From: Onthophagus taurus
Taxonomy: Eukaryota > Arthropoda > Insecta > Coleoptera > Scarabaeidae
Direction: 5' to 3'
Length of the DNA: 64,000 bases
NCBI RefSeq assembly: GCF_036711975.1
Contig: NC_091968.1
Span: 29,435,001-29,499,000 of the forward strand
The notes beneath the pieces were generated by a model. That model saw only the letters and a list, made by a program, of their open reading frames with translations. It did no database searches and had not been told where the DNA came from. Within the stretch, counting starts at the first letter, position 1. Every line of letters begins with the position of its first letter. Below, piece by piece: positions 6,550 through 52,130 of this stretch. Made by a program: the position numbers and the translations under genes.

Positions 6550-6557
6550 TTTTATAA
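6550..6557 (-). promoter_or_regulatory. TATA box of nuclease copy B
   Basis: On the minus strand the sequence reads ACTTATAAAAAG about 50 bp upstream of the start codon, comparable in placement to the TATA boxes of the other three copies. Confidence 0.5.
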
Positions 6558-9238: not shown

Positions 9239-9646
9239 TTTATTGCTAATTTCATGTCTTTTTGGAACGCCATCTCTTAAAACTTAACAAATTTCATCAA
9301 ACGTCAAATCAAACGTCTGATTTGACAGAAACAAATAATTTGACAGATCAAAAAGTTATTTCTCTGTTCATTATTAATTTTGTAAGTTTGAACTCTTACT
9401 ACTCAATCCACACTTATATTTCGTAACAAAAACGGCGAATTTCATTAATTATTATATAATATTGATAATAAAGTTTATTTAGGATTAATTTTTAACGTTT
9501 TTTAAAATATAATTTTCTTTTTACACTTTTCAGGTATTTTGCAGCCAATAATAAAGTGCAATATGTTAAATATATGTATTACTTGCTTATAATTCAAGCG
9601 ATTTAAAATGTTTTTTTGTTTGCAAATTACAGAAAACTATAATTAA

Positions 9647-10930: not shown

Positions 10931-10984
10931 GTTGAAAAATTGATGGAACTTTGCAAACTGGTTAAGTTCTTTAATATTTTTTTC

Positions 10985-10991
10985 CTTATAA
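10985..10991 (-). promoter_or_regulatory. Probable TATA box of nuclease copy C
   Basis: On the minus strand TTATAAGG lies about 55 bp upstream of the start codon, in the position where the other copies have a TATA box. Confidence 0.4.
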
Positions 10992-16600: not shown

Positions 16601-19600
16601 TGCAGGAAGGGTTTAACTTCAACAATGTATATAAAAATAATGACGGATGGTGTATTAATAGAAGTAATGTTGAAGTTCCCAAAATTGTAAAGAATTTTTT
16701 GTCTTTAGATCCAAAATTTTTAAAAGAAGGCTTGTTGCACTAATGTTATCATAAATTTTTTGCAAAAATCACAGTAATTTTTGTAAAAAACATGACGTTT
16801 CATAAAATTGACATTTAATTTTAACAAATTGTTGTGAAGTTGCTTACAGTTGGTAACATTGAATGTGTGTCACATTGACGTTTAAATTTTACTCAACTTT
16901 ACTTTTCCCTACATCTTTAAGTATTTAGGTGATATCTATGCGATTCCCTCAGACTAGATCGACAATATTCTTAATGTGTTTAATGGTTTTGATCTACATT
17001 TACAGTTTATTGTGGAGAACGAGGTTAACTCATCTGGGAAACGTTTTTTAGGACTTTTTAAAGGTTTGATGTTAAAAAAACGTAAACAAATTCCGTTTTT
17101 CGTATGATTTAAGCATAAATTAATTAATTTTCGTAAAAAAACATGACGTATCATAAAATTGACATTTAATTTTGACAAATTGTTGTGAAGTTGCTTACAG
17201 TTGGTAACATTGCATTTGTGTCACATTGACGTTTAAACTTTATTCAAAAATTTATTTAAAAACTATATGAATAAAAATCCCTTGTCTACCTTACTAATAA
17301 ATTTTGTTCCAAAAACTTAGTTAAAGAAAAAGGATAATTGTTTGTTTTAATTTTTTTTTGCATTTGTCGATTCCCAAGAATATCTACATTTCCTATGTTG
17401 TAACGATTGAAATTCCTTTCCACATAACTTGTGTTTTAAGATCTGATTCCAGCACAAAAACCCTCAATGGTGCTTCATCCCCACAAGACACAAAAAGTAC
17501 GCAATCGGGTAACAAAGAAAATGTATCCTTAAACGACTCCTGGGATAACCCAAATAATCATTTAAATCGATCGATGTCAGGGCCGGACTGTTTAGAACGA
17601 TTACGAGAACCCCAATCACCCGAATTTGATCGATCGACTGTCAGTAGTTTTGAGGTGATGAACACCGACAACCAAGAAGTGGTCGTTAGAAGAGCTGCAA
17701 AAACGGGTTCAGCCGCGATTAAAAGGAGACATGGAAAGCGGCTTTCTCGATCAAAAATTAAGCGAAGGTGCTCGATTAATGGTCACTTTTACGACCGCGA
17801 AACAAGCTTTTTTACACCTCCGAGAGGCAGTCAAATGAGCGTTTGGATAACTTCGTTAGTTAGCACCCAGGAGGTGATTAATTTACTTTTGGAGAAATAT
17901 AAAGTGGATAGTGACCCAAAGAATTTCGCTTTATTTATCGTTCGAGATAATGGAGGTTAGGTTTTATATTAAACTTTATACATTGAATTTCACTTAAGAT
18001 GCAATACAGTGGATCCAAGTTAAACTGGGACACTACAGTATTCTTACTAAAAAATATGTAAACTAAAACAGCTAGGAAAAAGAAGTAAATTGATTTTTAG
18101 TAATTTATTAATTGCATGTTTAAAAAACAAATACAAAAATTTATTCACTGTAATAATAAAATATAAAAATAAACGAAAACGGTACAAAAACTATGTATAA
18201 GCCAAACACGGAGGGTAAACAAAATTTAGAAAGCGTATTTATATTTTTAATAACTTATATTTAGTATGAAAGCCTTTGCTTTTTATAACCATTTTAAGCC
18301 AGTTAGGCATTTTCTGGGTGGAATTTTCTCCCATTCTTCCAACAAAGCATCTAAATACCAACAACTTTGGTAACTAAGTAATTCCATAAATTTTCAATTT
18401 ATTTATTTATGTCTGGGATTTGTGGTGACGTTTCCATTACATGAAGGCAATTATATAAGAGCCAAGAACGTACTTTGTACGCCTTCTGTGTGAACATCCT
18501 GGTCCAGCAGCTGAAAATGACCCTCACACCATCATAGATCCGCCACCATGTTTCACAGTTGGTCTTACATTTTTTAAATGCAGCTCCTCATTTTTTCTTC
18601 TCCATACATATGGCTTACCATCTGACCCAAAAATACTATATTTACTTTCGTCAGTCAATAAAACGGTTTTCCAAAAAGAAAAATCGTTTCGATTCTTTTT
18701 TTTTTTTTTGATTTTTTTTTCTTTTGCGGTTTTCTTCTCGTCTTTCTACCATTTAAGTAGGCATTATGGAGCATGTGTCTGATGGTTGCCACACTAGCTT
18801 TTTTCCCTAGTTCATTTTCAGCAATAATAGCCAGCTTAACTAAAAAATGGATCCGCTTTCATTTTTGTTATTAAATACCATTCAACCGATTCAGTAAAAA
18901 TTTTATGATCAGCGCTTTATTATATCGTGCACCGTAGAATGGCTTCTGTCTACAATTTTTACAATTTCTCGTACCGATTTTTTTTCCTGGATGTTTAAAG
19001 TGTTTAAGCACTAATTTCAATAATTGTTTGGTCTCTTTGTCTAGACATTTCGAATAAAAAGCTAGATTTCCACGCGAATAATACAAAAAGTCAATTAGGG
19101 AATTACCCTTGTCAACTGTTAAAGCTACTACATGAAATTGTTTGTAATTTTTACTTATGGCTGCCTTAATTTAGCGCTTAATTGGTTATTCTTAATTGCT
19201 TTCGAGTTTGGCTTGTGCCTAGCTTTTGTTTCGTCTTACTTTATTTTTATATTTTTTTTATTACAGTGAATACATTTTTGCATTTTGTGTTTGTTTTTTG
19301 AATATGCAATTAATAAATTACTGAAAATCAATTTACTTTTTTTTTCCTAACTGTTTTAGTTTGAATATTTTTTAGTAAGAAAGTATTATTAAGCCGAGTA
19401 TTAGCGTCAAATTGGTTGTAAACCGGCAAATTTACATATAACGCTACTGCTATACCGAAAATAGAAAATTTTCCAGCCATAATGTTAGTTCTAGTGTCAG
19501 TGATAGGTAGCCCTAGTTAACATAAGATATCACTATGTTGCATATTTTTATTGCACTAAAATTAGAACTATCACTAGTCCTAGAACTAGAAACATTTGGG

Positions 19601-22873: not shown

Positions 22874-24539
22874 ATGAAAAAATCAGAAAAAAATGTTGAA
22901 AATACCGTTAAAGGTGTCCGAACGAGTGTCCACAAGCGAAAACATCACACTCGACAAAAAGCGATTCAATTCGCGGCGGAGGAAGCGGCAAAGGGAGAAA
23001 TCTTACTTACGGAATCCGGTGGTTTCTTAGAACCAGATGATGGGGAAACGTCCCTACAATTTAATCAGACTGATATCAAAGCTAACGTAGACATAGCTTC
23101 AGCTGCTAAAAGTTTTGAATTAAAACTTGAAAATTTTGGGCCTTATCGATGTCGATACACCCGAAATGGGCGACACTTGTTATTAGGAGGGAAAATTGGG
23201 CATGTTGCAGCCATGGATTGGGTAACAAAAAAGTTACATTGTGAATTAAATGTTATGGAATCAGTACACGATGTTTGTTGGTTACATCTTGAAACTATGT
23301 TTGCTGTAGCACAAAAACAGTGGGTGTATATTTATGATCACCAAGGAATTGAGTTGCATTGCGTTAAGAGATTAAATAGAGTTAGTAAAATGGAGTTTTT
23401 ACCTTATCATTTCTTATTAGCCACTGCAGTAAGATTTTTGATTGAGTTAATTATTTTTTTGATTAATTTAGTATTGTTTTAGGGTGAAACTGGTTATTTA
23501 TCATGGTTGGATATATCAATAGGTGAAATAGCCGGACAATTTAATACCAGATTAGGACCTTTAAATCTCCTTTCTCAAAATCCCTACAATGCATGTTTAT
23601 GTGTTGGCCATGCTAAAGGAGTTGTATCAATGTGGTCACCTACAGTTCGAGAACCTCTAGTAAAGATTCTTTGTCATAAAGCTCCCATGACAGCTCTTCA
23701 TGTTGATCCAAGAGGTCAACATTTAGTAACAGCAGCTGTTGATCGAACTGTTAAAGTTTGGGATGTAAGAAAACTTGTGGGTCCTTTACAATCGTACCAT
23801 TTTAATAGTGTAGTTGGAAACGTTGCGTTTTCCCAAAAAGATCTTTTAGCCATCAGTATGGGAAATGTTGTTGAAATTTTTAATGATTGCATATACAACA
23901 CACAAAAAAAGCCTTATCTTCGTCATCGCTTTTCTTCTCACATTTCCAACATTAATTTTGTACCTTACGAGGATGTTTTGGGGGTAGGCGTAAAGCACGG
24001 ATTCGCGAGCCTTCTAGTTCCAGGTTGTGGCGAACCTAATTTTGACGCTCACGAAGCCAATCCATATCAAACGAAAACGCAGAGACGCGAAGCCGAGGTT
24101 AAAGCTTTACTTGAAAAAATCCAACCAGATCTAATTACTTTAGATCCAACTAAAATAGCGCAAGTGGATACGGTTAAGTTAAGGGATAAAATTGAAGCAA
24201 AGAAGAAATTATTGGTAAGTTTCAACAAATAAAAATGATTTAAATTAATTTTTTTTATTTTAAAAGCATGTAAAAGCCCCGAAAATAAGTTATGAAGGCA
24301 AAAATAAAATGAAAGGACGTGGTGGGGTAGCTAAAATGGCACGTAATAAAAAAATTGTTAATGAACTTGCTAAAAAGGTGAGTAAATTGTTTAATTTGAT
24401 TTTGGGCTATTTATTGTTAAATTTTTTGTAGGAATTTGTGAAGAAAGTGAAAGCTTTGAAAGAAAGTGGAGGAAAAAATAAGATTTTAAAAGCAACAAAA
24501 CCTGCAAGTGCTTTGGATCGATTCTTACCTAAAAAATAA
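22874..24539 (+). CDS. Wdr46: WD repeat-containing protein 46 (UTP7 homologue), small-subunit processome
   Basis: Exons are 22874-23428, 23483-24214, 24267-24377 and 24432-24539; all junctions are phase 0 and give 501 aa. The Lys/Arg-rich N-terminus ([20 protein letters not shown]) is followed by [19 protein letters not shown], the start of the propeller. A clear WD unit is [19 protein letters not shown]. The BING4CT region follows ([40 protein letters not shown]). The basic tail has [13 protein letters not shown]. Yeast Utp7 and human WDR46 act in the nucleolus in early 18S rRNA processing. Length and domain order are normal. A partial DNA copy of the last two exons lies downstream at 24863-25070. 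Confidence 0.93.
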
Positions 24540-24608
24540 ACTTATTTTAATAATTATTATTAAATAAACTGATTGAAACAATACTTATTTTTTAATAATT
24601 TATTTTTA

Positions 24609-24618
24609 GCGCCATCTA
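24609..24618 (-). promoter_or_regulatory. CTCF-like motif between WDR46 and ALIX
   Basis: On the minus strand the bases read CGTCGCTAGATGGCGCTAAA, which contains TAGATGGCGC, the core recalled for insect CTCF. It sits 70 bp after the WDR46 stop. A weaker relative (GAGATGGCGCT) lies at 25146-25156, on the other side of the duplicated WDR46 fragment. Confidence 0.4.
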
Positions 24619-24764
24619 GCGACGAATAGTTGTAACTAATAGAGAAATTTACAGTAACCTACAATTCGAGTTAAAAATGCTATGATTTTATTAACACTAA
24701 TTATTATATTATTTTGTAATAAAATCGTGAAATTAAAGGTAATATCATGAGGTCTCACGATTTA

Positions 24765-24860
24765 TCCTGGCAACTTCGCTCTTGAGAGACAGATATCACT
24801 ATGTTGCATATTTTTATTGCACTAAAACTAGAACTAACACTAGAACTAGCAACCGATACT
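24765..24860. repeat. CTAGAAC foldback repeat at the WDR46 duplication
   Basis: The AGATATCACTATGTTGCATA module leads into AAAACTAGAACTAACACTAG and ends directly against the duplicated WDR46 fragment. Confidence 0.75.
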
Positions 24861-24862
24861 TT

Positions 24863-25070
24863 CACGTAATAAAAAAATTCTTAATGAACTTGCTAGAAAG
24901 GTAAGTAAATTGTTTAATTAGATTTTGGGTTATTTATTGTTGAATTTTTTGTAGGAATTTGTGAAGAAAATGAAAGCTTTGGAGGAAAGCGAAGGGAAAA
25001 ATAAGGTTTTAAAGCAACGAAACCTGAAATAAATTTATTTTAATAATAATTATTAAATAAACAAATTGAA
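24863..25070 (+). pseudogene. Partial duplicate of WDR46 3' exons
   Basis: TCACGTAATAAAAAAATT...CTTGCTAGAAAGGTAAG matches the end of exon 3, the intron follows, and then GAATTTGTGAAGAAAATGAA matches exon 4. Because the intron is retained, this is a DNA-level duplication, not a retrocopy. It breaks off before the real C-terminus (the [11 protein letters not shown] equivalent is missing, with a frame change at AAGCAACGAAACC) and has no start. It is non-functional. Confidence 0.88.
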
Positions 25071-25462
25071 AAAATAATAATTTTTGAATACTAATTTATA
25101 AGTAAAAATTTAATGACAGTTAAGAAAATTACTTTTATATCACAAGAGATGGCGCTACACTCACTAAAATTATAACTTTATTTTTAGCTGTACAATAATT
25201 TATTTACATTTTCATAGTTTGATAAGTCCTCATTCTATACAAAACAACACTTAAAAATAAATTATCATGTTTATTTTAACTTTATTATCTTTAAAACCGT
25301 TGATGACAATTAAAATCACGTGACCAACTTAAACCAATAAAATTCCCTGATGATTTATTGTTAGTTGTTGACTCATCTGTCAAAAGACGTTAACTCCCTG
25401 AAGTGGTCCCGTAGAAGTGATCGTTGTAAACGAAATACGTGTTTTAATTTTGTTCTTGAAAA

Positions 25463-28400: not shown

Positions 28401-31400
28401 GTTCATAGGTAGATCATTGTACGTTTTAGCTATCTGGTAGGAAAAGGATCGGTGCGAGGCGCGGCGTGGTACCGTCAATACATCCTTCCTCCTTATATTA
28501 ATGTTATGGATATCGCTTCTGAAAGATAGCCGTTGCAGCAAGTAAGGAGGCCGCTGACTTTTAATAATTTTATGATAAACGCAAGTTGCATGCAGTTTAC
28601 GTCTGTTTTTCATGTTCAACCACCCAGTATCTGCCAACTTATGACTAATGTGGTCATATTTACGCATTCCGTAAATAAACCTCAGACAACCGTTCTGAAG
28701 GTTCTGGATACGACGCCCACTCGCCTCCGTTAAATTTGGACCATAAACAACGTCGCAGTGATTTAATTTGCTTAGAACCAAGCTATCACACAGCATAATT
28801 TTTAATTTTTTACTTAAGACATCCCTATGGGCATACAAGAGATGCAGGGCGCCATACCCACCCCTCAAGCACCTGGCCACATGCTCCTCAAACCTCAACT
28901 GATGATCCAATGTGACTCCTAAAATTTTTATATCATCAGAAACAGTAAGAGGTTCGCCATCCACCAATTGACCGGATATCAAAGGCTTAATCGCTCTCCT
29001 TGTGACACTACCGCAAAACAGAAGAACAGAAGACTTAAATGGATTAAGCATAAGTTCATGGCGTTTCGCAACATCAGAAAATAATGCTATATCTGAGTTA
29101 AATTTTATGCAGGCATCAACCCAATTATTTGGATTAAAATTCAGCAGAAGCTGTGTATCGTCTGCATACAAGTGAATCTGCGAATGCTCGAGAACCTGGT
29201 CAAAATCAGATGTATAAATAGAGAACAATAGTGGCCCCAAAATGGACCCCTCAGGGACTCCACGAGTAACAGACAGAGCACTCGACACTTGACTATTAAT
29301 CTTCACAACCTGAGATCTGTCCGACAAAAATGACTTTATCAAAATTGCAGCTTGATTTCCAAGACCAAAATAATTAAGTTTAGATGCAAGTATATTATGA
29401 TTTATTGTATCAAATGCTTTGGTGAAGTCCAACGATAACAAAAGTGCGGCTTGCCCGGCTTCTCTAGAAGCAAATACATCATCAGTAAAGTTCAATAAAG
29501 CTGTTGCGCAGCTGAAACCCGAACGAAACCCAGATTGTTGATCTGGCAGTATCGCTCTTAAAAAATTAGGGAGGTCTAATTTTGAAAAACTGATAACGGA
29601 ATCCGACATTATTTGACATATTTTGGTCAAATCCGTGAGGAAATCCACCTAGCCATTTTCGACATAACAGCGTCTTACTAAACCGCGATTTTCCGCGAAA
29701 CTGTATGGAATATCGAAAAATAAAATATGCCTCTCATTAAGAACACATCACCTGTTAAAAATTCAACTTTTTTTGTACAATAGTTTTTGAGAAAAAATTG
29801 CAAAGTTGACAATGTTGCCGGTACCGTAAAAAATCGGGTACTTTTTCCATTCGACTCACGATAAAAAGAAAACCGTGTATCCGAAAATTTTCAAATTAAT
29901 ATATGTTACGTAGAAATGTTCAGTGATTACAACGAACTTTGTCGCAATTTTTTTTATCGAGCGGTTGCGAAGATATCGATCTCTAAATTGAGGGGCCTTG
30001 ACTTTTTGCACGGATAGTAGGTAAGATTACAACGTATATACAGATGAAACACCTGGTTTTTCTTAGGCTTTCGATGCATAACGACTGACTACCTGTCGTT
30101 AGATAGACTGTATCAATAGACTCTGTGTTAATACTAGAACTAACACTAGACCGAAAACTAGAAACATTTGGATTTAGTCGCACGTCACTCAAGACGGCTA
30201 AACCCGAATGATTCTAGTTCTAGGTCTAGTGTTAGTTCTAGTTTTATACTAGCACTGTCATTAGACCTAGAATTAGAACTAGAAAGTATCGTCTGAAGAC
30301 GCACAGCTAAACTGGTTTAAATGTTATTTAACCTAACTCAAAATGGAATTTCTACACAAAATTCTGAAATAAATCAGTAAATTAGGTGGATCCGAATGTA
30401 ACGTTTAAAGCGGGGAGTAGATTTAAGGTTATCTTTAGTTTATAGATTGTAAACAATAACATTTTATTAAATAAAAGAAACACTTGTGCACTTTGACAAT
30501 GGATAAATTTATTGATGATCTGCTTTTACCGGTTTCGCCTGAAAGGCATCATCAGAAAGCATTGTCGCTATTCAAATACATAAAAGAATCGTAACATTAC
30601 TTAAGGATAAGTTCGAAAACAAACTAAAACACCACTAAAATTATCAATGAAACAAATATGAAGTCAAATCAACCCTAACAATGTTTTTCGAAAACTGCTA
30701 TTAAAAGTTGACTTTTGCGTAGTACTTAGCGACCGTCAAAACGATAGTTTTTTGTCAACAGGACGTAAAAGTCTTTTTTGTAATTCGCTACGGTAATGGA
30801 AGCTATAACAGTACTCAAACGGGTGCTGTAATGAGACTCCTTACAGCATCCGATGCTGTAATGAGATTTTAGTAACATTTTATGGAACCAGTTCAAGTTG
30901 GTGACATTGGGTCATTAATTTTTCCAGTTGTCAATGTGACAATGTTTGTCTATGGATGTTTAAACGCGTTCTTAGCATCGAATACAAGGTCCACAATGAT
31001 GAGGACATTGAACTCTGAGCAATTTCTCTTATTTTGGGAGGTGTACATGAAACATTTTTGTCAGGTGAATACATTTTGTGTTTTGACAGTTTCTAATTGT
31101 CAATTCAAATTTCTATTATCAAGTGTTACGGTATTACCAACTGGTACATACCTATTTCCCTACATTGTCAAAATTTATTTTATTTTTGAGAAAAAAAAGG
31201 ATAAAAACGCGAATTACAAAAAATAGCATAAAAAACACGTTTCATAAGACTTAAAGCACTCGAACAATTTTTTTTACTCGCTAAAGCTCGCAAAAAAAAC
31301 TTTCGTTCTCGAATGCAAAAGTGTCATTTCGCTATCTTGTATCAAAAATAACTATTGTCGCACGTGGACGTCAAGGTTCTGTATAACAATTGTCAAAGTA

Positions 31401-34400
31401 CACAAGTGTTTCTTTTATTTAATCATACTATAATGGAAAGACAAGAAAATATTAACAATATTAACGATATTTTAGTCGTTGTGCGTCGAAGAGCTAAGAA
31501 ATAACAGTATTCTTCCGAATATATACGTTTTAACCAAATGTACTACGAAAATATATGGTTAGCACAGTCGATGACGTCACAAGAAGTCATATCGAAACTT
31601 TGAAGTGATTATTCGTTAAGTCTTACACTTTTCCGCACTTTTTTTATTATTTGTAACGGCTTACTTGAGTGATTTTCCGTCGATTAAAGAATAATTGTCG
31701 ATTATTAAGCGACATGAAGATTCTTGAATTATACCCAAATTTTTGAGGTTATGTTTAATTTATTTTTTGAATAATTTATATTTTCTTACGTTCAGTCTGA
31801 TAGGATGTTAAATGAAGAGAAGCAGTCTGACGATGCTTTAAGGGCGCAATTTAAGGATCGGTGGAATAGAACTCCTTCAGAAAAACTGACTGATATGTTC
31901 CGATCAAATTCCGCTAAGTATCGACAAATTATTAACAATGCTATTGATGTAAGTATTTATACAGGGTGAGTTATTACTATTAGTATCCTGGCGGACGAAT
32001 AATGACATTTATTACACATTTTTCTTTAAATTCTAAATATCAAGAAAACTATTAAAGTTAGGCATATGACGTATGTACCATTAATTAAATAGAGCTTGAT
32101 GGGCAATTCAACCAGCACACAATATACAGGATATACAGGTTCCATTTAAAAAAATTATGTACTCTTCGTTACGCTTAAATGGAACACTTTGTATAAGTGA
32201 AAATAATTTTACGTAATAGAAGGTGGTGAGTTAAACAACTTTTGTATAAAACATTTTTTTCTTTTTTATACAGTTTAGTAACTATCGACCGCCAGGATAC
32301 TAATAATTATTACTATTAATTTTGTGCTATACAGGTGTCCCACGTAAGCGGCCAAGTAATGGCGTTAAGGAGCCGAGATACACAGTTCTTCCTCAGACAA
32401 AAGTTGTAGGAAATATACCACACTATAAATAGAAAATATTTTTATACTTACAGAAGTTCCATAACGACGTATCGAAATAAACATGTTATTTTAAATGGAA
32501 TGACACAGTTTTTATTGTGTGTTCTGATTCTATACACAAAAATATGTTGACTTTGATAAGATATGTTGATACCTAGTGCCTTTAGTTTTTGAGTTATTGT
32601 AATTAGAAACTTTATTTAGCAATTAACACTGTCCTTTAAATCTGAATTTCTTGGCGGCTGATCGAAGAAGAATGTTAAAATTTGTAACAGTAGGTGCTTG
32701 AATATCCTTAAATAGAGCACCACTGGCTATATCAGTCTACCTTATACAGGTTTAACCTTACTTGTTTTACCATATTCAATTGCAAAAAAGTCGAAAATTT
32801 TAAATGGAACACCCCATATTTGATTAGCTTATCAGATAGAGAATTTAATTCTCTACAAATCTTCAATATATATCCCTATACCTATCTGTTGCTGTTGTTG
32901 AGATATAGTGGAATAGACAACCTAAGCCTTGACGTCACAGAGATGGGCGGAGCTTATACTGACTCCAAACATCTTCGTTGCTAACTGTGTTGCTAACGAT
33001 AAATCCCTATATGCAATTTTTCAATTAATGTTAAAATAAAATAAACTAAGTGACATTTTAGATGACGTTTTAAATGACATTTTATGGCGATTTATCTTAG
33101 CAACTGTGGTTAGCAACGAAATTGTTTGGAGTCGGTATAAGCTCCGCCCACCTCTGTGACGTCAGACTTATTAATCAAAATCATGCAAAGAATGACAGAT
33201 ATTATTAATTTTTTTATTAGTAGGCCATGAAATATAGACGTTTGACAGCTTTCAAGTGCTTTGATTTGATTCAAATTACAAAAAAAACAAATTAACGGTA
33301 TAACCAAGTAGTACATAAACCCAAGGATAATCATTAATCATAATATATCTCCATCGAGTGGCGCTGCACCCTGATACTCATAGCCATATTTTTGAGGTTA
33401 TCTTAATAATTAATGTTTATATATAAAAATGTTTCAAATAATATTTGTTTAAAATTAAATTTATAATAATTTTTATTAATAACATTCTTTTAAAATATTT
33501 ATAGGGCGCGCTCTGTACTGGTATCAAAAACAATATTTTTGAGGTTATCTCAATAATTATTAATTCTATCAAAAAGTTTTTCAAACAAAATTTGCTTAAA
33601 ATTAAGTTGCCAACAATTTATCTTGATACAATTTTTTCGTATTTTTAATAGGTAACCCTCTATAGTATACCATTTTGATTTCCCTATAAAAAGTACGCAA
33701 ATTTATTACATATTTAACGATAATCATTGCATTTATCAAAAAATTATATGTATACTTTGCAGCTTACGTGGGACATCTATAAATAAACTATAAATTTAAA
33801 AATTACTTCAAATTCATCTTAACATCAACTTGTTTTTCAGGCTGATAAAATAGTAAGAGAAAAATTTGAAACAAATAAAGAAGGTATTATAAATTTAAGT
33901 AAATCTACGAGTGAATTAGAATCGATTGTCCCCTCTGGAAATGGGAATTCAATCGGAAATAGTTCCGCTGTTAGTACTTTACGAGAATTAATGCAGGAAG
34001 TGGATACAATTAAAGCCGAAAGGGATACAATTGAATATGAACTAACAAACGCGACATTAGATATGAAAGATAAATTTATGTCCTCATTAGCGAACGATGG
34101 GGCAGTAAACGAGCCGGTTCTTTCAGTTGAGATGTTAGGAAAAACGTTTGGACCTTTGCAAAAACAAGTTAAAGAAAGCGTTGAAAAACAAGAATTGCTT
34201 TTAGAAAAGATTCAATCGGCAAACAACGAATTTGTTCGAGAAAGGGGTTCAACATCTGGAGACCGTGAAAGAATCATGTCTCAATTAGCTGCGGGATATG
34301 ATGCGTTTAAAGAAATTCAAAATAATTTAAAAGAAGGGACTAAATTTTATAATGATTTAACTCAAATTTTATTGGCCGCTCAAAATAAGATTTCCGATTA

Positions 34401-41600: not shown

Positions 41601-44600
41601 ACCATCGCCGTAATCAAAAGTAATTTCCGTATTTTCTGGAATATCATGTAAAGCGAACACGCAAAGCTTCGGGATGACGCATTGACACCGAATTGGAATA
41701 ACCAAACAATTTGGTTGACAACTATGGTTAATGTAACGTCCGATGTTACCAAAAATCGATGGATCAATAAAAGTTTGTATCTTATTTTCACCGAATTGTT
41801 CCATTAAACAAAAAATGTAATTCGGTAAACAATGTTCTTCTTGTCGTTTGAATCGTAAATCAGCTTCGTTTTTCGAGATAACCTCACCGGCATATTCACA
41901 AACGAAATTTCCTTCTTTAATAGCCTCCATCGTCATCAACCCGGCCCCTTTAGACCCTTTCAAATCCTTAATTCTCTGTTTATTTAATTTCGATAATTCA
42001 CTTTCGGTTAATATCCTAAGACCTTTCCTAGGTCCGAATTGCACCAATTTGTTCCCACAGAAAGCGGAACAAAGACAATTTTTATTACACTCGTACACCG
42101 GGCTATATTTCTTGATTAATTCATAATTATTTTGAATCGAATCGATTGTGTTGGACGTTTTGTCGCGTTGAAATTCATAATTCGCGTTTAATTCTATACA
42201 GCTACACCCGGATTCTTTCGTACATAAATCGGTGCATTTACATCCGGAGGCTAAATCGTAAAAATTATCGTATGTTTCTTTAGTTGGGATATTCTCGGTT
42301 GTGTACATTACTTTTGGGTCGTTTACTGCGATATCGTAGGTGTCGATTAGCGGCGGGATTTCCATTTGGAGTCTTCGACAAGGTTCGTTTTCGATTGAGG
42401 TTATGTTTACTACGGCGGGTTTAAATCGATTTTGAGTTTCCATTATTAAGTTTTATATAAAATTGTGGTGATTTCTTTTAAATTGGATCAAAATTGATGT
42501 TCTTACGAATTAAAAATGATATTGACAGGTTATTTTTATTTGATTATTTTTTTTTGTTAAGTTTGCCAAGTTGAATTCACCATTTTGAATTATGATTTTA
42601 ACCTTAAAATTTCTTTTTTATTATACTCTGTTTTTAAATCAGGAGCAAGGTTTGTAAAGCGTATTGTAAGCGTACCAATTCCTAATTAATTTTAAAAGGT
42701 GAGGTGCATCCGCAAAAAAATAAATCTTTTTTGTAGTTGTTGGATGTACTATATATGAGGATTCGTGTGTAATACCCAACTCTCTCCACAAACCAAGATT
42801 TGAGGGTCCACAATCAGACACAACACAAAGTACCAGTCATTCTTGTATCAAAACCGGCCAAAAATTGGCTGCTTCCAAGATCCAAACAGTCCCCTGGCGT
42901 TCACAACCTGCATTTGTGAATGCGGACCAATAATTTGATCATATTTCCTATCATACTCATACAGTTCTGCAACTTTCATTTCGTCAAATGACAAAACAAC
43001 AAGCCTTTCTTGATCACTGTACCCTCTCCAGCCACAGAGAGAAAAAGTAGCATGTGATGTAAAATACCCTGTCTCATATCAATTTTCGAAGCCCAAGATT
43101 TTAGCGTTTATATACCTAACATAAATAAAATAAATTGATATCAATAAAATTATTGAATAAAAGTAAACAAGTAAAAATAATAAATTAACCTGGTAGGGGA
43201 TAATTTAAATGAATCCGTAAATACTGATAGCATCGTTGACTAAGATATCTAAGAGTGAATGCGTTTGTAATATCTTCTTCACCCCATTTTACAATCCGTT
43301 TGTTATGGATAACTTTTTCTACTTGCTTTGGTGTAAATATATGTTGTATTTTATTTTTTAAAATGTTGTTTATTTCTTTAGAATCCTTTTGTGTAACATG
43401 TTTCATAAGACGTTGTACTTTTCCATTTAAAAAACAGTTTTGACGCCTAATTGTCTTTATGAGAACATCCTTCCTACGTAACTTTCTTTCCAAAACATCA
43501 TTTTTCTCTGCTAATTGACATATTTTTCGTTTCAATTCATTTATTGTGTCATCAGTTGTTATCATATCTTCAGTTTGACATGCTACACTGGATTTTAATA
43601 AACAGTTTACATCATTTCCCTTTGATAATGGTTTTTTTGAAATATTTAATAATGATGTAGATGGATCAAGGTATTCGCAGATATTTGAAACGTCGTCTTG
43701 AGATGCTCCCAAGTTTAAAGTGGGTATAGCTGTCTTCTTTAGAAGCCGCCTACGTTTCAATTGCAACAGTTCCGCACGTAGGTCGCGTTCAAAATCTTCA
43801 GGACGAAAATGTAATGAACAGACCCTTGCTGTTGTAACATTAACTTCCTCTTTACATTTCATCAGCCATAGTTTACGAACGTCTTCCTCTTTGGGTATGT
43901 TAAAAAACGATATATTTAAACCAATAACTGTTGATACAACATAATTCGAACGACAATTTTTAATTGCACATGAAACAGGCATCTAAAATTACAAATTTTG
44001 ATGCGGGGTTATAATAAATCATAACTTATCTGTAAACCTAACCTACCTTACCTAACATTCAGCGTCTGAAGACACAGGGCTAAACCCTAAACTCAAAAAT
44101 ATACAACTTAGCGCTGAATAACAATTAAAACTAGAACTAACACTTGCACTAGAACTATACTCTGTTTTTAAACCAGGAGGAGTAAACGCGAAAGTCAGAT
44201 TTACACTAGGAAAAATCACCAGAAAATATCACTAGATATTTTGGCGGTAAATTTAAATTAATAATTATTATTTATTTATTTACTTATTATTGTATTTATT
44301 TTCGTTTGTTATCGTCAACACTAAACATACAAATTAACATTGAAGTTATGAGTGTATTTATTTCAAAATATAATAAAGAAGGGTTTAAGAACACAAAATT
44401 TACAATAATGACACGAAACTGTCGAATTGTCAATAGCCTAACCTTCAAATTCAAAATTGCCTGTGTGTGAACCTTCCTCGCATTCAACCAATCACGTGCA
44501 AGGTCAATCTGGTGACAAATTTAAAATACTCCTCCTGGTTTAAAAACAGAGTATAATGGGGTCATACACGATTTTTTTTTTATTATATTTTCTGAAAGTT

Positions 44601-47600
44601 TATATAAAAATATAGTTACCGTTATTTTTTTTTTAAATATTTTCGAACAAAGACATTGTTAAAAAAATTATTGAAAATTTATATACCCATTTGCGCTTTT
44701 AAAATTCCCGCGTTGATGACGTACGATTCTCACTTTTGCGTCCCCTGCTACCCGCTCAAATGCGAGAAAAAGATGAACGTTATTTAGGTTGTATTGAAAA
44801 GAGATAGAGTGTTTGTAGGTTATGTTTATTATGTTTTGTTCATGGATGTAATAGAGACACTCTATTACATCCATGGTTTTATTTTGACACTGTCACACCG
44901 CCAGCGCTATCTAGCGGACAATTTAACTTGTTTTAGGCAGTGCGGTTCCTACGTCACAGAAAAGCCGCGAAATTATTTCGTTTGAATATTTGCTATTTTT
45001 CACTTCAAATTACGCAAAATATAAAATTGATCAAAATATTTCTTTTACTTTGTGTTCATGCATATACTTGCATATATCGTTTGACATAAAAATTTTCTCT
45101 AAATTTAATAAGTGTGTATGACCCCATTGCCAAAGAAAACTTCAAGGTATAATTAATGTTTGTAAACAAAACTAACCTTACCTAACATTCCTTCACGCTA
45201 TAATTGACATTACAAAAGAAAACTTCACGCTATAATTGCCATTACTAATTGCCAAAGAAAACTTCATGGTATAATTAATGTTTGTAAACAAAACTAACCT
45301 TACCTCACATTCCTTCACGCTATAATTGACATTACAAAAGAAAACTTCACGCTATAATTGCCATTACAAATTGCCAAAGAATACTTCATGGTATAATTAA
45401 TGTTTGTAAACAAAACTAACCTTACCTCACATTCCTTCACGCTATAATTGACATTACAAAAGAAAACTTCACGCTATAATTGCCATTACTAATTGCCATT
45501 ACTAATTGCCAAAGAAAACTTCATGGTATAATTAATGTTTGTAAACAAAACTAACCTTACCGAACATTCCTTAACGCTATAATTGACATTACTAAAGAAA
45601 ACTTCACGCTATAATTGCCATTACTAATTGCCAAAGAAAACTTCATGGTATAATTAATGTTTGTAAACAAAACTAACCTTACCGAACATTCCTTCACGCT
45701 ATAATTGGCATTACAAAAGAAAACTTCACGCTATAATTGCCATTACTAATTGCCAAAAAATACTTCATGGTATAATTAATGTTTGTAAACAAAACTAACC
45801 TTACCTAACATTCAGCGTCTGAAGACACAGGGCTAAACCCGAAACTTAAAAATATACAACTTAGCGCTGAATAACAATTAAAACTAGAACTAACACTTGC
45901 ACTAGAACTATACTCTGTTTTTAAACCAGGAGGAGTAAACGCGAAAGTCAGATTTACACTGGGAAAATATCACTAGATATTTTGGCGGTAAATTTAAATT
46001 AATAATTATTATTTATTTATTTACTTATTATTGTATTTATTTTCGTTTGTTATCGTCAACACTATACATACAAATTAACATTGAAGTTATGAGTGTATTT
46101 ATTTCAAAATATAATAATAAAAAAGGGTTTAAGAACACAAAATATACAATAATGACACGAAACTGTCGAATTATCAATTACCTAACCTTCAAATTCAAAA
46201 TCAAAATTGCCTGTGTGTTAGGGTTGCCAGATGGGTACTGTATGAAAGTAGGACAATTGTACAAAAAAAGCCTGATTTTTTATAAAAAAGCCGGACATAT
46301 TTTAAAAATGCATTTGTACATGTATGTGAAATTCAAACTATATTTTGGCAATTTTTATTTTTCGCAAAGTTGCCCAGTCACTATTATTAACCAAATAAAA
46401 AGCGATAATTACTAATAAAAGTTTCTGCTAATGCTTTTATTTTTTAAAAATAAAATATTCTTATAACCTACTGGTAACATCGAACATAATACATAAACAA
46501 CAATTAACAAAAAACATATACTTTATATAAAAACTCTACTAGATTAGTGGTCTATACCTAATGCATTTAGGTTTGCAAATCTGACTGTGAAGAACTTGCA
46601 GCCCCTGGTGGTTTATGATTAGGACAATATTTGTCAGACGAACTAATTTTTTTGAGGAGATCCTGGTTTGCTGACAGATAGGTATAAAAATCAGAACCTG
46701 TATAATTTTTAAAGTTATACTTAAGCAATATCATTCCTTTCACTGAATCAATTGATAGGCGATTTCGCTCTTTTGTCCACTGCGAGAAAATGAATGAAAA
46801 AATTCGCTCAACCGTGGCATTATTTGCAGGAATTGCAAAATAAAATTGGCAAATAATTAACAGTTGTGAAACAATTTCTAAATTTTTGCAATTTTTATAA
46901 AACTGGCACCATTTCTGATCCAATGATAAGTTTGTGAAGTCATTATTATTTTCAAATGATTTTAAAAACTCTTTTAAAATTATAGTTTCATCCAGTAATT
47001 TGCCATCGTCAATACAAATCCCAAGTTGACTAAGGTATTCTAGAAAAGGTACCACATCATCAAACTTAAAGTCTGAATCATTAAGAAGCATCCATTTAAA
47101 AGGCTCAAAGTCACTTAATGGTGCTGCCCATTTTTCTAAATATGAAATACATTTTTGGTAGAAATCATCCTTGCGCCAATCGGCCAACCTGACAAATAAG
47201 CGTTTTGGGTAATAGGTTATAGGTGGCGATGGCGCCTCGTTGCAAGGCAGTTTCTGGCAGGGTCGGTCGATCGGCCGGTTAGATTTTTGTGGTTAACCAG
47301 TTGCATTTTGTTTGCACTCTTTAGAAATCGAGTAATTATTGTAGAAATCGGATTTAATTTGCAATTTTTTCCCTAAGTTGGAAAAAGCCGGACAGAGAGA
47401 AAAGCCGGCCGGACATAACCAAATTGCCAAAAAAGGAGGACATGTCCGGCTTTAGCCGGACGTCTGGCAACCCTACTGTGTGTGAACCTTCCTCGCATTC
47501 AACCAATCACGTGCAAGGTCAATCTGGTGACAAATTTAAAATACTCCTCCTAGTTTAAAAACAGAGTATAGAAGTATTATTTCTTTATTTCCTTTTGCCT

Positions 47601-50600
47601 AGTAATAATATATATAAGTCATTTAATTGGGCATGAAGGGCCTGGAAGTCTCTTATTGACGTTAAAAGAGAGGGGATAGTCGAATAGTCTAAAGACGCAC
47701 GGCTAAACCCAAATTTTTCTAGTTCTAGGTCTAGTGTTAGTTCTAGTTTTACTAGCACAATTATTATGTAGAATTAACACTATACTTAGAACTGGAATCA
47801 TTTGGACTTAGCTGCACGTCTCTAAAGATGGCTAAACCCGAATGATTCTAGTTCTAAGTATAGTGTTAGTTCTAGTTTTACACTAGCATTGTTACTATAT
47901 AGAACTAATACTATACTTAGAACTAGAATCATTTGGGCATAGCTGCACGTCTCTAAAGACGGCTAAACCCCAATGATTCTAGTTCTAAGTATAGTGTTAG
48001 TTCTAGTTTTACAACTGCACTGTCACTAGAACTAATATTAGACCTAGAGTTAGAATCATTTGAGTTTAGCCGTACGTCTCTTAAGACGGCTAAACCCCAA
48101 TGATTGTAGTTCTTGGTCTAGCGCTGTTTGACAATTAAAACTACAACTCACACTGTTATTATGTATACTTAAAACTAGAATCATTTGAGTTTATCTACCA
48201 ATTTGTTCCTTATGTATGTTTCTTTACTTGGGATGTTCTCGGTTGTGTACATTACTTTTGGGTCGTTCGTAGGTATCGATTAACGGTGGGATTTCAATTT
48301 TTCGATTGAGGTTACGTTTACTAAGGCGGGTTTAATTCGATTTTGAGTTTCCATTATTAAGTTTTATGTAAAATCTTAGTGATTTGTTTTAAATCGGATC
48401 AAAATGGATGTTATAACGAATTAAAAATGATTTTGACAGGTTATTTTTTATTTGGTAACTTTTTTTTGTTAAGTTTTTTTTTTTTGATAAGTTTACCAAG
48501 TTGAATTCACCATTTTGAAATTTTGAATTACGATTTTAACCTCAAAATTAATTTTTTTATTTCTTTTTAGCCTGGTAATTATATAAGTCATTTAATTGGG
48601 CATGAAGGGCCTGGAAGTCTCTTATCGGCGTTAAAAGAGAGGGGATGGTCGAATAGTCTTGTTGCGGGGAATAAACCGGCCCCGCGAGGAATGGGGTTCT
48701 TTGGAATCTCCGTTGATTTAACCGAAGAAGGGATTAAACACATCGATGATATAATAACGTTAATATTTCAAGTAAATTAATGTTTTTTTTGTGATAAATA
48801 AGTAATTTATTGACTTTTTTAGTACATTAAAATGTTGAAAGATGCCGGGCCGTTGTTGTGGATTCAAGAGGAGCAACGAGATATATCCGCGATGACTTTT
48901 CGGTTTAAAGATAAGGAGAGTCCTAGGAGTTATATTGTGGGGCTTGTGAATAATCTTCAGGTTCGTTTATTTAAAAATGCGAATTTAAGGGATTTAATTT
49001 TTTATTTTGAAGCATTTTCCGCTTGAAGATGTTTTATGTGGTGGATATTTTTTGACCGATTGGAAACCGGAAATAATTACGAGCTTGCTAAATGATTTTA
49101 ATCCGAATAATATTAGAGTGGGGGTTATCGCTAAGAAATATGTGGATGTCGTCGATCAAAAAGAACCGTGGTATGGAACTGATTATAAAATAGTTACGAT
49201 ACCTCAACAAACTTTGGAGGTAAATACTAAATTACATAATAATATGTAATAACGTTGATTTTATGTGTAGATGTGGAAAAACGTGGCAGTTCCGAACGAT
49301 CTTCATTTGCCCGATAAAAATGAATTAATTCCGAGCAATTTCGAAGTTTACCCATTGGAGAAGGAAAATACTGAATGGCCGAGTATTATTAAAGACACCC
49401 CGATTAGCCGAGTTTGGTTTAAGCAGGATGATAAATTTTTGTTGCCCAAAACTAATTTAATGTTTGATTTTGTGAGGTAAAAGAGACTCTGCGAAATATT
49501 TCTAAATTAATCTCATTATTGTAAAAGTCCTTTAGCATATTTGGATCCACTCAATTGCAACTTAACCCACATGTTTGTGCAATTATTTAAAGATTCCTTG
49601 AATCAATATGCTTACGCTGCAGAATTAGCCGGATTAAAATACGAACTATCCAACACAAAATATGGATTAATTGTAAAATTATTAACTTTTTTTTTTTAAT
49701 TATTTATAAACAATTTTTTTTTAGTTAGTGTTGAGCGGATTTAATGATAAACAATCAGTTTTCTTAGATAAAGTGATGGAAAAATTGACCTCTTTTAAAA
49801 TTGATCCAAAACGATTTGAAATTTTTAAAGAAAACGTAAATTAGATTTAAATTAATAATAAAAACATCTAAATTTTCAATCAATTTTTTTTAGTATATAA
49901 GGATGTTAAAGAATTTCGCTGCGGAACAACCATATCAACACGCCGTTTATTACTTAGCAGTTCTATTAACCGAACATTCTTGGACGAAACAAGAACTTTT
50001 AGCTGCAACGGAACGTGAGTGGTGCTAAAATAAACTAACATCTACCTTTAAAATGATCTTAGAATTAACTGTTGATAGATTGGAGGCGTTTATACCGCAA
50101 ATTTTATCGAAAATGCACGTTGAATGCTTACTTCACGGCAATTTGACGCGCTCGAAAGGTTTGGATTTGGTGGAAATCGTCGAAAATCGCTTGCAACAAA
50201 GCGTTAATATGCAACCGTTATTACCCAGGCAATTATTACTTAACCGAGAATTAAAATTGGAGGATGGATGTAATTATTTATATGAAGTACAAAATGAGGT
50301 TCACATTGCAAGTTGTGTCGAGTTGTATTATCAATGTGGAGTGCAAAACACAGCGAGTAATATGTTGTTGGAGTTGTTCTCCCAGATTATTCACGAACCA
50401 TGTTTTAACGTTTTAAGAACGAAGGTAATTATTTTAAATTGGGTAAAATCCATGTTGCAAGATTAAATTTAACTTTGACATATCATAATAGCTAATCCAA
50501 TTATCACTAGAACTAACACAAGACCTAGAATCATTCGGGCCACGAGTTTTTTAATGAATGAGTGCTTTAAGTCTTATGAAACGTTTTTATACTTTTTTTT

Positions 50601-52130
50601 AACAAAAATAAAGTAAATTTTGGCAATGTAGGGAAATAGGTATGTAGCAGTTGGTAACACTTGAAAATAGAAACTTTGAATTGACAATTAGAAACTGTCA
50701 AAGCACAAAATATATTCACCTGAAAAAAATGTTTGATGTACACCTCCCAAAATAAGAGAAATTGCTCAGAGTCAATGTCCTCATCATTGTGGACCTTGTA
50801 TTCGATGCTAAGAACGTGTTTAAACATCCATAGACAAAAATTGTCACATTGACAACTAGAAAAATTAATGACCCAATGTCACCAACTTGAACTGGTTCCA
50901 TAAAATGTTACTAAAATCTCATTACAGCATCGGATGCTGTAAGGAGTCTCATTACAGCACCCGTTTGAGTACTGTTATAGCTTCTATTACCGTAGCGAAT
51001 TACAAAAAGTAAATTTACAGTTTCCTGTAAATTATGGTAGTATAACTAAAAATTATTCTACTAAAAATTTATATATAATTTATTTTATTGTCGAATATGT
51101 AACATTCTAACATGTTAAACTTTTCGTAATCCATCTTAAAAAACAGGATTTTTAATTTGACACAAATTTTTGAATACAAATATAGCTATGTTTGTTTGAA
51201 TTAAAAAAAATATATATATATAAGCGCCATCTATCAATAATTTATTAAGTCATTTAATAATAATATTAAATATTAATAAAAAATCAAAAATAATGTAATC
51301 TATTCCAACTTTTGTGTAAAACAATATAAATTAAATAGTTCAACAAATGTATTTGTTTCAAATATCAGAAATATGTTTTTTTTAATTTAGTTATAATTTA
51401 CAGGAAACTGTAAATTTAATTTCTTTGACAACATTAAAAAAAAAAGTTTATTTTTAGCTTTTTCTAGTTCTAGGTCTAATGTTAGTTCTAGTTTTACACT
51501 AAAACTAGAACTAACACTAGATCTAGAACTTACTTTTAATTATAACCAAATTTGTTTTAGGAGCAATTAGGTTACATAGTTTTCAGTGGGATTCGTCGCT
51601 CAAATGGCGTTCACGGTTTAAGAATAATCGTTCAATCACAAAGACACCCCACTTACGTTGATGAGAGAATCGAGGAATTCCTCACGAGTATGTACGAGTA
51701 CATCGAGAAGATGTCCGATGAGGAATTCGCAAAACATAAAGAAGCTTTGGCCGTGCAACGTTTGGAAAAACCGAAACAATTATCATCGCAATCTTATGTA
51801 TATTGGACGGAGATTAATATGCAACAATATCACTTCGATCGTGTTAATGTTGAAGTTGCTTATTTGAGGAATATCACCAAAAATGATATTTGCGATTTTT
51901 ATAAAATGTTATTGGCGGAAAACGCTCAACAACGACACAAAATTGCGATCCATGTTATATCCGTTGCGGATGGTGTTACGAGGGGGCCTGTACACGAAGA
52001 AACGACTAAGTTGGTTTCTGCGCAAACGATGATTCATGATGTAACGGCGTTTAAGAGTTCGCATGGAATGCATCCACTTGTCCAACCGTATATTAGTATA
52101 ACGCGGAAAGGAAATAAATCGAAACTTTAA
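35642..52130 (+). CDS. Ide: Insulin-degrading enzyme (M16A zinc metallopeptidase)
   Basis: Exons: 35642-35715, 35798-36507, 36558-36760, 48571-48771, 48823-48960, 49013-49219, 49271-49476, 49528-49672, 49725-49835, 49894-50014, 50063-50424, 51561-52130. All phases agree and give 1015 aa. The inverted zinc motif HFCEH falls at residues 108-112 with the downstream Glu at 189 (VHSEHEKN), the same numbers as human IDE. Later blocks match too ([34 protein letters not shown]). Two starts are possible: Met1 with a basic leader ([20 protein letters not shown]) or Met43 in a better context (AAAATGG), paralleling human Met1/Met42. The C-terminus is SKL, a type 1 peroxisomal signal. By family it degrades insulin-like and other short peptides. 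Intron 3 is 11.8 kb and hosts another gene. Confidence 0.96.
36830..37051. mobile_element. ~220-bp MITE with AGGTTGTCTAGGTTC ends
   Basis: The left end AGAGGTTGTCTAGGTTCGTA pairs with the right end AGGAACTTAGACAACCTT. The interior is richer in GC than its flanks (TACGCAACCATACTGCGCAT, TTGCGTGCGCAATCCG). It lies directly beside the mariner element. Confidence 0.7.
37056..38744 (-). mobile_element. Mariner-superfamily transposon, transposase with DUF4817-like N-terminus
   Basis: Ends ACAGGATGTCCCGCAACGAT and ATCGTTGCGGGACACCTGT are flanked by TA. The inverted repeats extend about 130 bp, with a second matching block (GGTCCATTTTCGGACC) further in. The minus strand encodes [20 protein letters not shown] (the N-terminal helix-turn-helix block), ETGSVTHS, then [30 protein letters not shown] and [13 protein letters not shown]. 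The frame is split at about 38150 and again near 37650, where the catalytic C-terminal end is displaced. Nearly whole but apparently inactive. Confidence 0.87.
38785..39035. repeat. CTAGAAC foldback repeat beside the mariner element
   Basis: AAATGCAACATAGC leads to GGCCGTCTTAAGAGACACAC, AGCTAAACCTGAATGATTCT, then a second arm with AGAACTAGAAATATTCGG, GATTTAGCCGCATGTCTCTC and AAGATGGTTAAACCCGAATG. Confidence 0.8.
39046..39390 (+). mobile_element. Gypsy-type LTR retrotransposon fossil (polymerase fragment)
   Basis: The + strand resembles the stretch from late reverse transcriptase into the connection region of Gypsy elements (for example YLDD and the later NLKELQRFL block). Only about 350 bp of the polymerase survives; no LTRs, gag or integrase are seen. 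It is broken, with several interruptions, and old. Its right end is cut by an R1-like LINE. Confidence 0.75.
39391..40885 (-). mobile_element. R1/LOA-type LINE fragment (RT end plus RNase H)
   Basis: The minus strand carries [34 protein letters not shown] and [13 protein letters not shown] in one frame (40838-40017), then an RNase H domain in the adjoining frame ([51 protein letters not shown]). A deletion after CPQGGV removes the catalytic YADD segment, and a frame change separates RT from RNase H near 40015. Both ends are missing. The RNase H domain places it in the R1/I/LOA group. Confidence 0.85.
40890..41130. repeat. CTAGAAC foldback repeat, composite copy
   Basis: ACTTAGAACTAGAATCATTT, then GACGGTTAAACCCGAATGAT, then TTCGAGATGTAGTGTTAGTT, a second partial arm, and the GCATATGCAACATAGTGATA module near 41058-41078. 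Confidence 0.85.
41493..42443 (-). CDS. SET-domain histone lysine methyltransferase, SETMAR/set-23 type, nested in the IDE intron
   Basis: A single exon of 316 aa. The pre-SET zinc cluster runs from [16 protein letters not shown] to [15 protein letters not shown], with nine cysteines. The SET domain contains [26 protein letters not shown], the catalytic [12 protein letters not shown] and EITFDYG. The post-SET domain is [14 protein letters not shown]. The order and the FLPF ending match the SET half of SETMAR and its invertebrate relatives. By family it is a nuclear enzyme methylating histone H3 (H3K36 or H3K9 have been proposed for relatives). All signature residues are intact and the frame is uninterrupted, so it looks functional. 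It is transcribed against IDE. A broken copy of its 5' end lies at 48211-48560. Confidence 0.92.
   Translation of the reverse strand: METQNRFKPAVVNITSIENEPCRRLQMEIPPLIDTYDIAVNDPKVMYTTENIPTKETYDNFYDLASGCKCTDLCTKESGCSCIELNANYEFQRDKTSNTIDSIQNNYELIKKYSPVYECNKNCLCSAFCGNKLVQFGPRKGLRILTESELSKLNKQRIKDLKGSKGAGLMTMEAIKEGNFVCEYAGEVISKNEADLRFKRQEEHCLPNYIFCLMEQFGENKIQTFIDPSIFGNIGRYINHSCQPNCLVIPIRCQCVIPKLCVFALHDIPENTEITFDYGDGRLGFVPSNDNEIVKKKCYCHSSLCRKFLPFQKYLY
42622..44035 (-). mobile_element. Internally deleted P-like transposon
   Basis: The left end TATACTCTGTTTTTAAATCA is shared with the MITEs at 44156 and 45909. The minus frame 43982-43185 begins with a THAP finger (PVSCAIKNC ... VCSLHF) followed by a Leu/Lys-rich coiled region. 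A further exon after a splice-like junction reads [28 protein letters not shown] and [13 protein letters not shown], then after a frameshift [16 protein letters not shown] and [17 protein letters not shown], the core of P-element transposase. The catalytic C-terminus is missing and the frame joins directly to the terminus, so it is an internal-deletion derivative. The right terminus is not certain. Confidence 0.8.
44055..44155. repeat. CTAGAAC repeat arm preceding a MITE
   Basis: CATTCAGCGTCTGAAGACAC, AGGGCTAAACCCTAAACTC, then AAAACTAGAACTAACACTTG and CACTAGAAC. The same block precedes the second MITE at 45822-45908, so repeat plus MITE were duplicated together. Confidence 0.8.
44156..44555. 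mobile_element. 400-bp MITE with TATACTCTG ends
   Basis: TATACTCTGTTTTTAAACCA, then GGAGGAGTA, pairs with TACTCCTCCTGGTTTAAAAA, then CAGAGTATA, a ~29-bp near-perfect inverted repeat. It has no transposase. The terminus matches the P-like element to its left, suggesting mobilisation by that family. A second copy is at 45909-47570. Confidence 0.85.
44556..45127. mobile_element. ~570-bp MITE with ATGGGGTCATACAC ends
   Basis: The left end ATGGGGTCATACAC pairs with the right end GTGTGTATGACCCCAT. Inside, at about 44842-44876, is a tight hairpin with 16-bp perfect arms (CATGGATGTAATAGAG) and a 3-base loop. It sits directly against the previous MITE. Confidence 0.8.
45128..45815. repeat. Tandem repeat of ~125 bp, about 5-6 copies
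   Basis: The anchor TTAATGTTTGTAAACAAAAC recurs about every 120-130 bp from 45152 to 45778. Each unit also has CTTCACGCTATAATTG and ACTTCATGGTATAATTA, so the unit is itself built from CTATAATTG-type subrepeats. Copies differ by small duplications of ATTGCCATTACTA. Confidence 0.9.
45822..45908. repeat. CTAGAAC repeat arm, second copy before a MITE
   Basis: Nearly identical to 44055-44155. Confidence 0.8.
45909..47570. mobile_element. Second TATACTCTG MITE, split by a hAT insertion
   Basis: The left half 45909-46218 and right half 47484-47570 are nearly identical to the MITE at 44156-44555. A hAT element lies between them. Confidence 0.88.
46219..47475 (-). mobile_element. hAT transposon, internally deleted, with 8-bp target duplication
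   Basis: The target duplication CTGTGTGT is at 46211-46218 and 47476-47483; the empty site is preserved in the sister MITE (about 44460-44470). Inverted ends are TAGGGTTGCCAGA and TCTGGCAACCCTA. The minus frame 47187-46567 encodes the hAT C-terminal dimerisation region ([39 protein letters not shown]). The zinc-finger and catalytic N-terminal parts are absent, so it is non-autonomous. Confidence 0.92.
47580..47690 (+). pseudogene. Broken duplicate of the 5' part of IDE exon 4
   Basis: TATATAAGTCATTTAATTGG and GCATGAAGGGCCTGGAAGTC match exon 4 (48571 on). The acceptor region is altered (TTTTGCCTAGTAATAATATA) and the copy ends at GTCGAATAGTC against a foldback repeat. It could be mis-spliced as a decoy exon but lacks the rest of exon 4. 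Confidence 0.9.
47691..48190. repeat. Cluster of CTAGAAC foldback repeats, ~3 full palindromes
   Basis: Three successive palindromes each have arms like ACTTAGAACTAGAATCATTT...GACGGCTAAACCC(G/C)AATGAT...TTCTAGTTCTAAGTATAGTG. Units are about 130-150 bp and highly similar, so this is the best place to define a consensus. Confidence 0.9.
48211..48560 (-). pseudogene. Broken duplicate of the SET gene 5' end and promoter
   Basis: It matches 42265-42620: GTATGTTTCTTTA, TCTCGGTTGTGTACATTACT, TTTTGAGTTTCCATTATTAA. Two internal deletions remove part of the coding N-terminus. Only the first ~57 codons are represented. Confidence 0.9.
50498..50545. repeat. CTAGAAC repeat, single arm, IDE intron 11
   Basis: ATCACTAGAACTAACACAAG, then ACCTAGAATCATTCGGGCC. 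Confidence 0.7.
50565..51010 (-). repeat. Second copy of the [10 protein letters not shown] repeat
   Basis: This is the reverse complement of 30775-31265: TGGAACCAGTTCAAGTTGGT on the minus strand and the same GCTACGGTAATAGAAGCTAT boundary. The frame that is continuous in the ALIX copy is shifted here. It inserted in IDE intron 11 without the inverted ends seen at 30463 and 31427. Confidence 0.85.
51224..51233 (-). promoter_or_regulatory. CTCF-like motif in IDE intron 11
   Basis: On the minus strand ATTGATAGATGGCGCTTA contains TAGATGGCGC, the same core as at 24609-24618. Confidence 0.35.
51462..51532. repeat. CTAGAAC foldback repeat, short-centre copy
   Basis: TTCTAGTTCTAGGTCTAATG...GTTTTACACTAAAACTAGAA...CACTAGATCTAGAAC. 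Here the two arms meet tail to tail without the AAACCCGAATGAT segment. Confidence 0.8.

Follow-up and report, generated by a model that had tools for sequence, protein, structure and literature searches.

A SETMAR-like SET gene nested in an intron of the gene for insulin-degrading enzyme (IDE) lies at the edge of a tandem duplication that spans these two overlapping genes. The duplication is real and old, an ordinary event in itself, and its two copies are separated by an array of a palindromic satellite. The same layout, with satellite between the copies, was found at three further places. We consider the best explanation, and probably the right one, to be a break with long overhangs that were filled in before the ends were joined, with satellite taken up as filler and a transposon complex added later. 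The layout resembles the scar of a mended chromosome break and suggests one route by which repeats may reach new places. To our knowledge, the spread of satellites to new places in gene-rich DNA is poorly understood, and arrays that stand between single-locus host duplications provide a datable and testable footprint of insertion.

The duplicated segment, about 450-475 bp in length, runs from inside the SET gene, via the SET 5' flank, into the IDE exon that ends at 48771, so that both breakpoints fall within coding sequence. When the region was compared by blastn with the window (the whole 64-kb stretch of DNA analysed here), 42265-42619 matched 48210-48557 (E 2.6e-88) and 47579-47690 matched 48551-48659 (E 2.8e-37). 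The earlier note had placed the first of these matches at 42265-42620 and 48211-48560, which the search recovered with nearly the same limits, and the second at 47580-47690 and 48571-48681; here the match itself was found, and its right end had to be moved from 48681 to 48659. The left copy (42265-42619 plus 47572-47690) and the right copy (48210-48659) are collinear, adjacent and on the same strand. The right copy is uninterrupted, whereas the left is opened in its AT-rich middle by 42620-47571. Clear SET homology begins at 42270 and 48214, with TTAT immediately before it in both copies. Substitutions between the copies amount to 32/395 in total (8.1%), with 9/139 in the SET coding part, 19/169 in the 5' flank and 4/87 in the exon. 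A whole-genome search with 48210-48771 (290.8 Mb in 33 contigs, the window being 29435001-29499000 of contig C3) returned three matches, namely the query and the two left pieces, and no further copy of the segment. Chance likeness of the copies was ruled out by the two E-values together with the lack of any other genome match.

Table 1. Features of the SET/IDE duplication, its inserts and the WD40 case (positions in the window; class names within the complex are partly our assumption)
Feature	Position	Strand	Evidence or comment
WD40 case, left copy, closely following the BING4/WD40 ORF	24340..24603	+	blastn
WD40 case, filler: ~165-bp dispersed repeat, then CTAGAAC fragment	24604..24862	.	
WD40 case, right copy	24863..25099	+	22/228 substitutions vs left copy
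SETMAR-like SET/Pre-SET gene inside IDE intron, intact, 316 aa	41493..42443	-	ORF, Pfam, PDB
Left copy part 1: start of SET coding sequence with 5' flank	42265..42619	-	blastn, alignment
Transposon complex, 4.95 kb	42620..47571	.	blastn, tandem-repeat search, Pfam, partly by eye
RNase H-like transposase piece, putative P superfamily	42848-43078		TNP-like RNaseH 1.9e-5
THAP ORF, putative P-superfamily piece	43185-43982		Pfam THAP 2.1e-15
MITE-like short element, ATGGGGTCATACAC ends	~44556-45129		read by eye
122-bp tandem array in complex	45126-45813		tandem-repeat search
hAT-like element	46219-47475		8-bp target duplication CTGTGTGT on both sides
Left copy part 2: decayed IDE exon 4 start, altered acceptor, in-frame stop	47572..47690	+	alignment
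Junction insert: 131-bp palindromic CTAGAAC satellite array, ~16 bp unassigned at right end	47691..48209	.	
Right copy part 1: 5' flank of SET and its start, truncated and frameshifted	48210..48557	-	alignment
Intact IDE exon 4; first 89 bp (48571-48659) are right copy	48571..48771	+	Pfam, PDB

Both genes are clearly recognisable from their domains. The SET gene matches Pfam SET (E 2.1e-22) and Pre-SET (E 1.2e-10), with SETMAR as its best PDB match (E 1.2e-39), while the IDE exon matches Pfam Peptidase_M16_C (E 7.8e-9) and encodes a 65-residue peptide that aligns over its whole length with insulin-degrading enzyme (3hgz; E 2.3e-21). The preceding IDE exon ends near 36760 and the next starts at 48571, after an AG; the label "exon 4" is our own reading of the upstream exons and not an annotation. 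Truncation is reciprocal, in that the left copy holds a full SET gene with a cut exon and the right a cut SET gene with a full exon. Decay is reciprocal as well, the SET gene being intact on the left and the exon on the right: the right SET start carries deletions of 11 bp and 22 bp, a frameshift and an in-frame stop, and in the left exon copy the acceptor is changed, 4 bp are inserted and a TGG codon has become the stop TAG. One intact copy of each gene part is retained, as had been read from the letters alone, and the spare halves are broken. A duplication over two overlapping genes can be resolved in this way, with each gene retaining a different copy. Overall, the history put forward in the earlier note, in which one segment from SET into IDE exon 4 was tandemly duplicated, proved largely right, being borne out by the collinear copies, the reciprocal truncation and the right copy free of any insert.

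The sequence that opens the left copy is a transposon complex with inverted repeats ATACTCTG... at its edges, 42620 and 47571 (blastn). Its THAP ORF and RNase H-like piece would fit the P superfamily. The element at 46219-47475 is called hAT-like from its end sequence and target duplication; a match to the hAT dimer domain within it has an E of 0.2, below the cut-off. The names P-like, MITE-like and hAT-like are all, in part, presumed. The complex is confined to the left copy, and it looks younger than the duplication because the right copy is without it and because its internal repeats differ by 13/426 and 1/95 substitutions (1-3%), as against the divergence between the copies, a comparison that, being drawn from repeats within the complex, gives no date for when it first inserted. 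This agrees with the earlier proposal that a P/MITE/hAT complex expanded the left copy after the duplication. Inspection by eye revealed no clear 8-bp target duplication around the complex as a whole. CTAGAAC-like fragments also occur inside the complex, at 44095-44163 and 45847-45916.

A cluster of CTAGAAC palindromes had been thought to mark the junction between the copies; it does fill 47691-48209, and it proved in addition to be a genome-wide satellite. Tandem Repeats Finder (TRF) delimits 3.2 copies of a 131-bp period at 47699-48113, and one unit of 131 bp folds into a single long hairpin (-40.3 kcal/mol, z -12.7). A 28-bp core of the satellite has 1,685 exact genome matches (801 forward and 884 reverse), compared with 0 for the same core pattern read backwards as a control, and a genome search for the satellite gave 4,699 first-look candidates, with 392 matches within the 40 scored. 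The cluster is a dispersed satellite, with head-to-tail units in many genomic places. Array ends fall throughout the unit and are somewhat clustered (rough mapping of 94/100 ends, chi-square P 4e-4). When the flanks of 15 arrays were intercompared, L018 and L024 were found to share both flanks (92-93% alike), the array there perhaps having been carried along within a larger repeat, and the flank matches between other arrays of the 15 were short pieces. A text search of the literature with words of the satellite sequence (19-23 letters) returned 0 papers, a weak result because papers rarely spell out sequences.

At L064 (1117-1862) and L033 (787-2965), too, a satellite array stands between single-locus host duplications. 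For each of these two duplications the genome search returned two matches and no more, its own two copies; they abut the array to within a few bp, the SET/IDE insert doing so within ~20 bp. The genome searches rule out a repeat family mistaken for a duplication at SET/IDE, L033 and L064. The remaining case lies in the window, beside a BING4/WD40 ORF at 23507-24232 (BING4CT 2.1e-39), where 24340-24603, as read by eye, comprises the putative last exons and 3' end of that gene. Its filler consists of two unrelated repeats: the ~165-bp repeat, which has more than 40 other genome matches, stands at the left junction, and the CTAGAAC fragment ends within ~13 bp of the right copy. A genome search excluded a repeat family as the source of the WD40 copies, though not of their filler. 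Across these cases the host duplications vary in length (about 105, 120-130, 265 and 450 bp), and the inserts start and stop at differing points of the 131-bp unit. Two other split duplications in the window, 16762-16896/17113-17247 and 33386-33490/33533-33637, each have a short spacer of other sequence with no satellite. Satellite is thus contained in 2/4 of the split-duplication spacers in the window (permutation P 0.035, for a test chosen post hoc).

The extent to which satellite arrays are flanked by host duplications was determined in two surveys, for which loci were chosen by satellite matches and not by flanks. The first covered 52 arrays, made up of 41 complete arrays (L005-L073) and 11 blocks of the window; the 41 were picked, once duplication listings had been seen, because each contained both ends of its array, and 29 of L005-L074 were excluded, comprising overlapping loci, loci whose array extends beyond their limits and a few with a complete array. 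The second added 17 complete arrays from 20 further loci, giving 69 arrays or blocks in both. Anchored alignment scores of 624 mismatched flank pairs were used as the null (99th percentile 22.8, maximum 81). Scores above the 99th percentile were obtained in the first survey for L064 (179), L033 (175) and window block 24791 (119), that is 3/52, and in the second for 1/17, L083 (64), which lies in a tandem-repeat setting and scores below the null maximum. At 49/52 and 16/17 arrays a flanking duplication above this percentile was absent; the SET/IDE array is itself among the 49, with a score of 10, owing to the complex that divides its left copy. The 95th null percentile was reached by 10/52, where ~3 are expected, and scores of 19-21 were found in 7 of the other 49 arrays, against 6.4% under the null (binomial P 0.036). 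Some arrays may therefore have short flank matches of no clear form. A transposable element whose copies mostly carry a target duplication of constant size was rejected as a candidate, given the counts of 3/52 and 1/17 and the variable lengths.

As a control we scored 1500 pseudo-blocks, all from this one 64-kb window after masking of its satellite and tandem arrays. Scores of at least 40 were reached by 10/1500, five of these lying over the WD40 case, two over the ~17-kb split duplication and three between paralogous endonuclease ORFs. Clean cases outside the window (2/58) compare with 5/1500 at Fisher P 0.025, or at P 0.0024 when L083 is added (3/58), and with all 10 at P 0.07. In a recount of all 80 complete, non-redundant blocks of at least 60 bp in L005-L094, 7/80 scored at least 40, comprising L033 and L064, which are clean, and L017, L027, L068, L080 and L083, which lie in repeat-rich settings, and L028 scored between 22.8 and 40. 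The clean cases (2/80) then give P 0.045 against 5/1500 and P 0.12 against 10/1500. All seven together give P 4e-7 against 5/1500, a value on which we do not rely because the control had its tandem arrays masked. The enrichment of clean duplication-flanked arrays is weak, and the link between the palindromic satellite and host duplications is suggestive and not yet secure. The arrays at L017, L027, L068, L080 and L083 are bracketed by direct repeats that belong to tandem or satellite-rich stretches.

The break that we favour as the origin of the SET/IDE layout would have been a single double-strand break with nicks offset by ~450 bp, one in the SET coding region and one in IDE exon 4. Fill-in of both overhangs and joining of the ends would have left the stretch between the nicks present twice in direct orientation, with the abundant palindromic satellite built in between the copies as filler, presumably captured in the same event, though it may have entered later. 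Afterwards each gene would have retained its unbroken copy while the other copy decayed, and the P-like/MITE/hAT-like complex would have grown later in the left copy. Aligned end to end, as the earlier note had suggested, the copies have collinear breakpoints, and the junction strings of parent and daughter sites, compared by eye, share a few bases at most and no long homology, with TCT common to both at the left SET/IDE junction. Crossing-over between two repeats is not needed, because the breakpoints are coding and the junctions have no long stretch in common. Overhangs of 105-450 nt would be an extrapolation from far shorter published cases. A much wider proposal, that the satellite seeds gene-rich DNA mainly as filler at breaks with 100-450-nt overhangs and that most dispersed arrays once had such footprints, since worn away, seems to us improbable.

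The same layout could have arisen in two steps, by an ordinary tandem duplication, whether through slippage, replication restart or unequal exchange, and a subsequent insertion of satellite at the junction, a history that we regard as possible while doubting it. The spacers at 16762-17247 and 33386-33637 in the window are without satellite, and duplication therefore does not require it; many satellite arrays, conversely, stand without a duplication, and the weakness of the enrichment of clean cases is also in keeping with two separate events. Against this, a later insertion would have had to land within a few to ~20 bases of the junction at each of L033, L064 and SET/IDE. Alternatively, the array might itself be mobile, integrating with a wide stagger and so making very long target-site duplications. 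In its favour are the duplications flanking the insert at four loci, the genome-wide dispersal of the family and a mild excess of short flank matches (the 7/49 noted above), yet most other arrays have no clear duplication, the duplication length varies about fourfold, and the roughly mapped array ends are spread over the unit, if with some clustering, all of which makes this origin unlikely. Break repair fits better than transposition because long homology is lacking, lengths and ends vary and most arrays are unduplicated. An assembly artefact, with two haplotypes joined end to end, has nothing in its favour that we found and is highly improbable given the 8.1% substitutions between the copies, the reciprocal gene decay with its frameshifts, the presence of transposons in one copy only and the unrelated filler.

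Repair of the proposed kind has counterparts elsewhere. Vaughn and Bennetzen in 2014 reportedly described patch-mediated double-strand-break duplications in rice, natural direct duplications that they are said to have attributed to offset nicks and repair. As in that class, the SET/IDE breakpoints, judged by eye, lie without pre-existing long homology; in contrast to the rice cases, the SET/IDE copies are split by a palindromic satellite, two genes are parted reciprocally and the genome is that of an insect. Tandem duplications that arise from breaks with offset nicks have been published (PMC5730883, PMC8355091), and in those nickase-made breaks with protruding ends, as is proposed for SET/IDE, the segment between two opposite-strand nicks is duplicated. 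In the parts of these papers considered here the nickase duplications are <100 bp, with overhangs of ~43-50 nt, and thus involve much shorter segments than SET/IDE, and, unlike in our case, no satellite filler is described (PMC5730883, PMC8355091). Short satellite arrays scattered near genes, with abrupt junctions and palindromes, are described for Tribolium TCAST (PMC3411249) and for mollusc satellites (PMC5139131), and some transposon-like forms of TCAST have a 3-bp target duplication (PMC3411249); the portions of these two accounts drawn on here describe no 100-450 bp host duplications around the arrays. Satellite arrays flush between long host duplications were not found in a limited search of the literature, partly of portions of papers, and may still be published.

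Other features of the window include an inverted pair of a 430-bp element at 30775-31209 and 50582-51008, 94% alike (blastn), and a cluster of non-specific endonuclease-like ORFs at 3073-12880, for one of which Pfam Endonuclease_NS was found on testing and to which the others match in blastn. Tandem arrays lie by this cluster at 853-2978 and 6652-9909.
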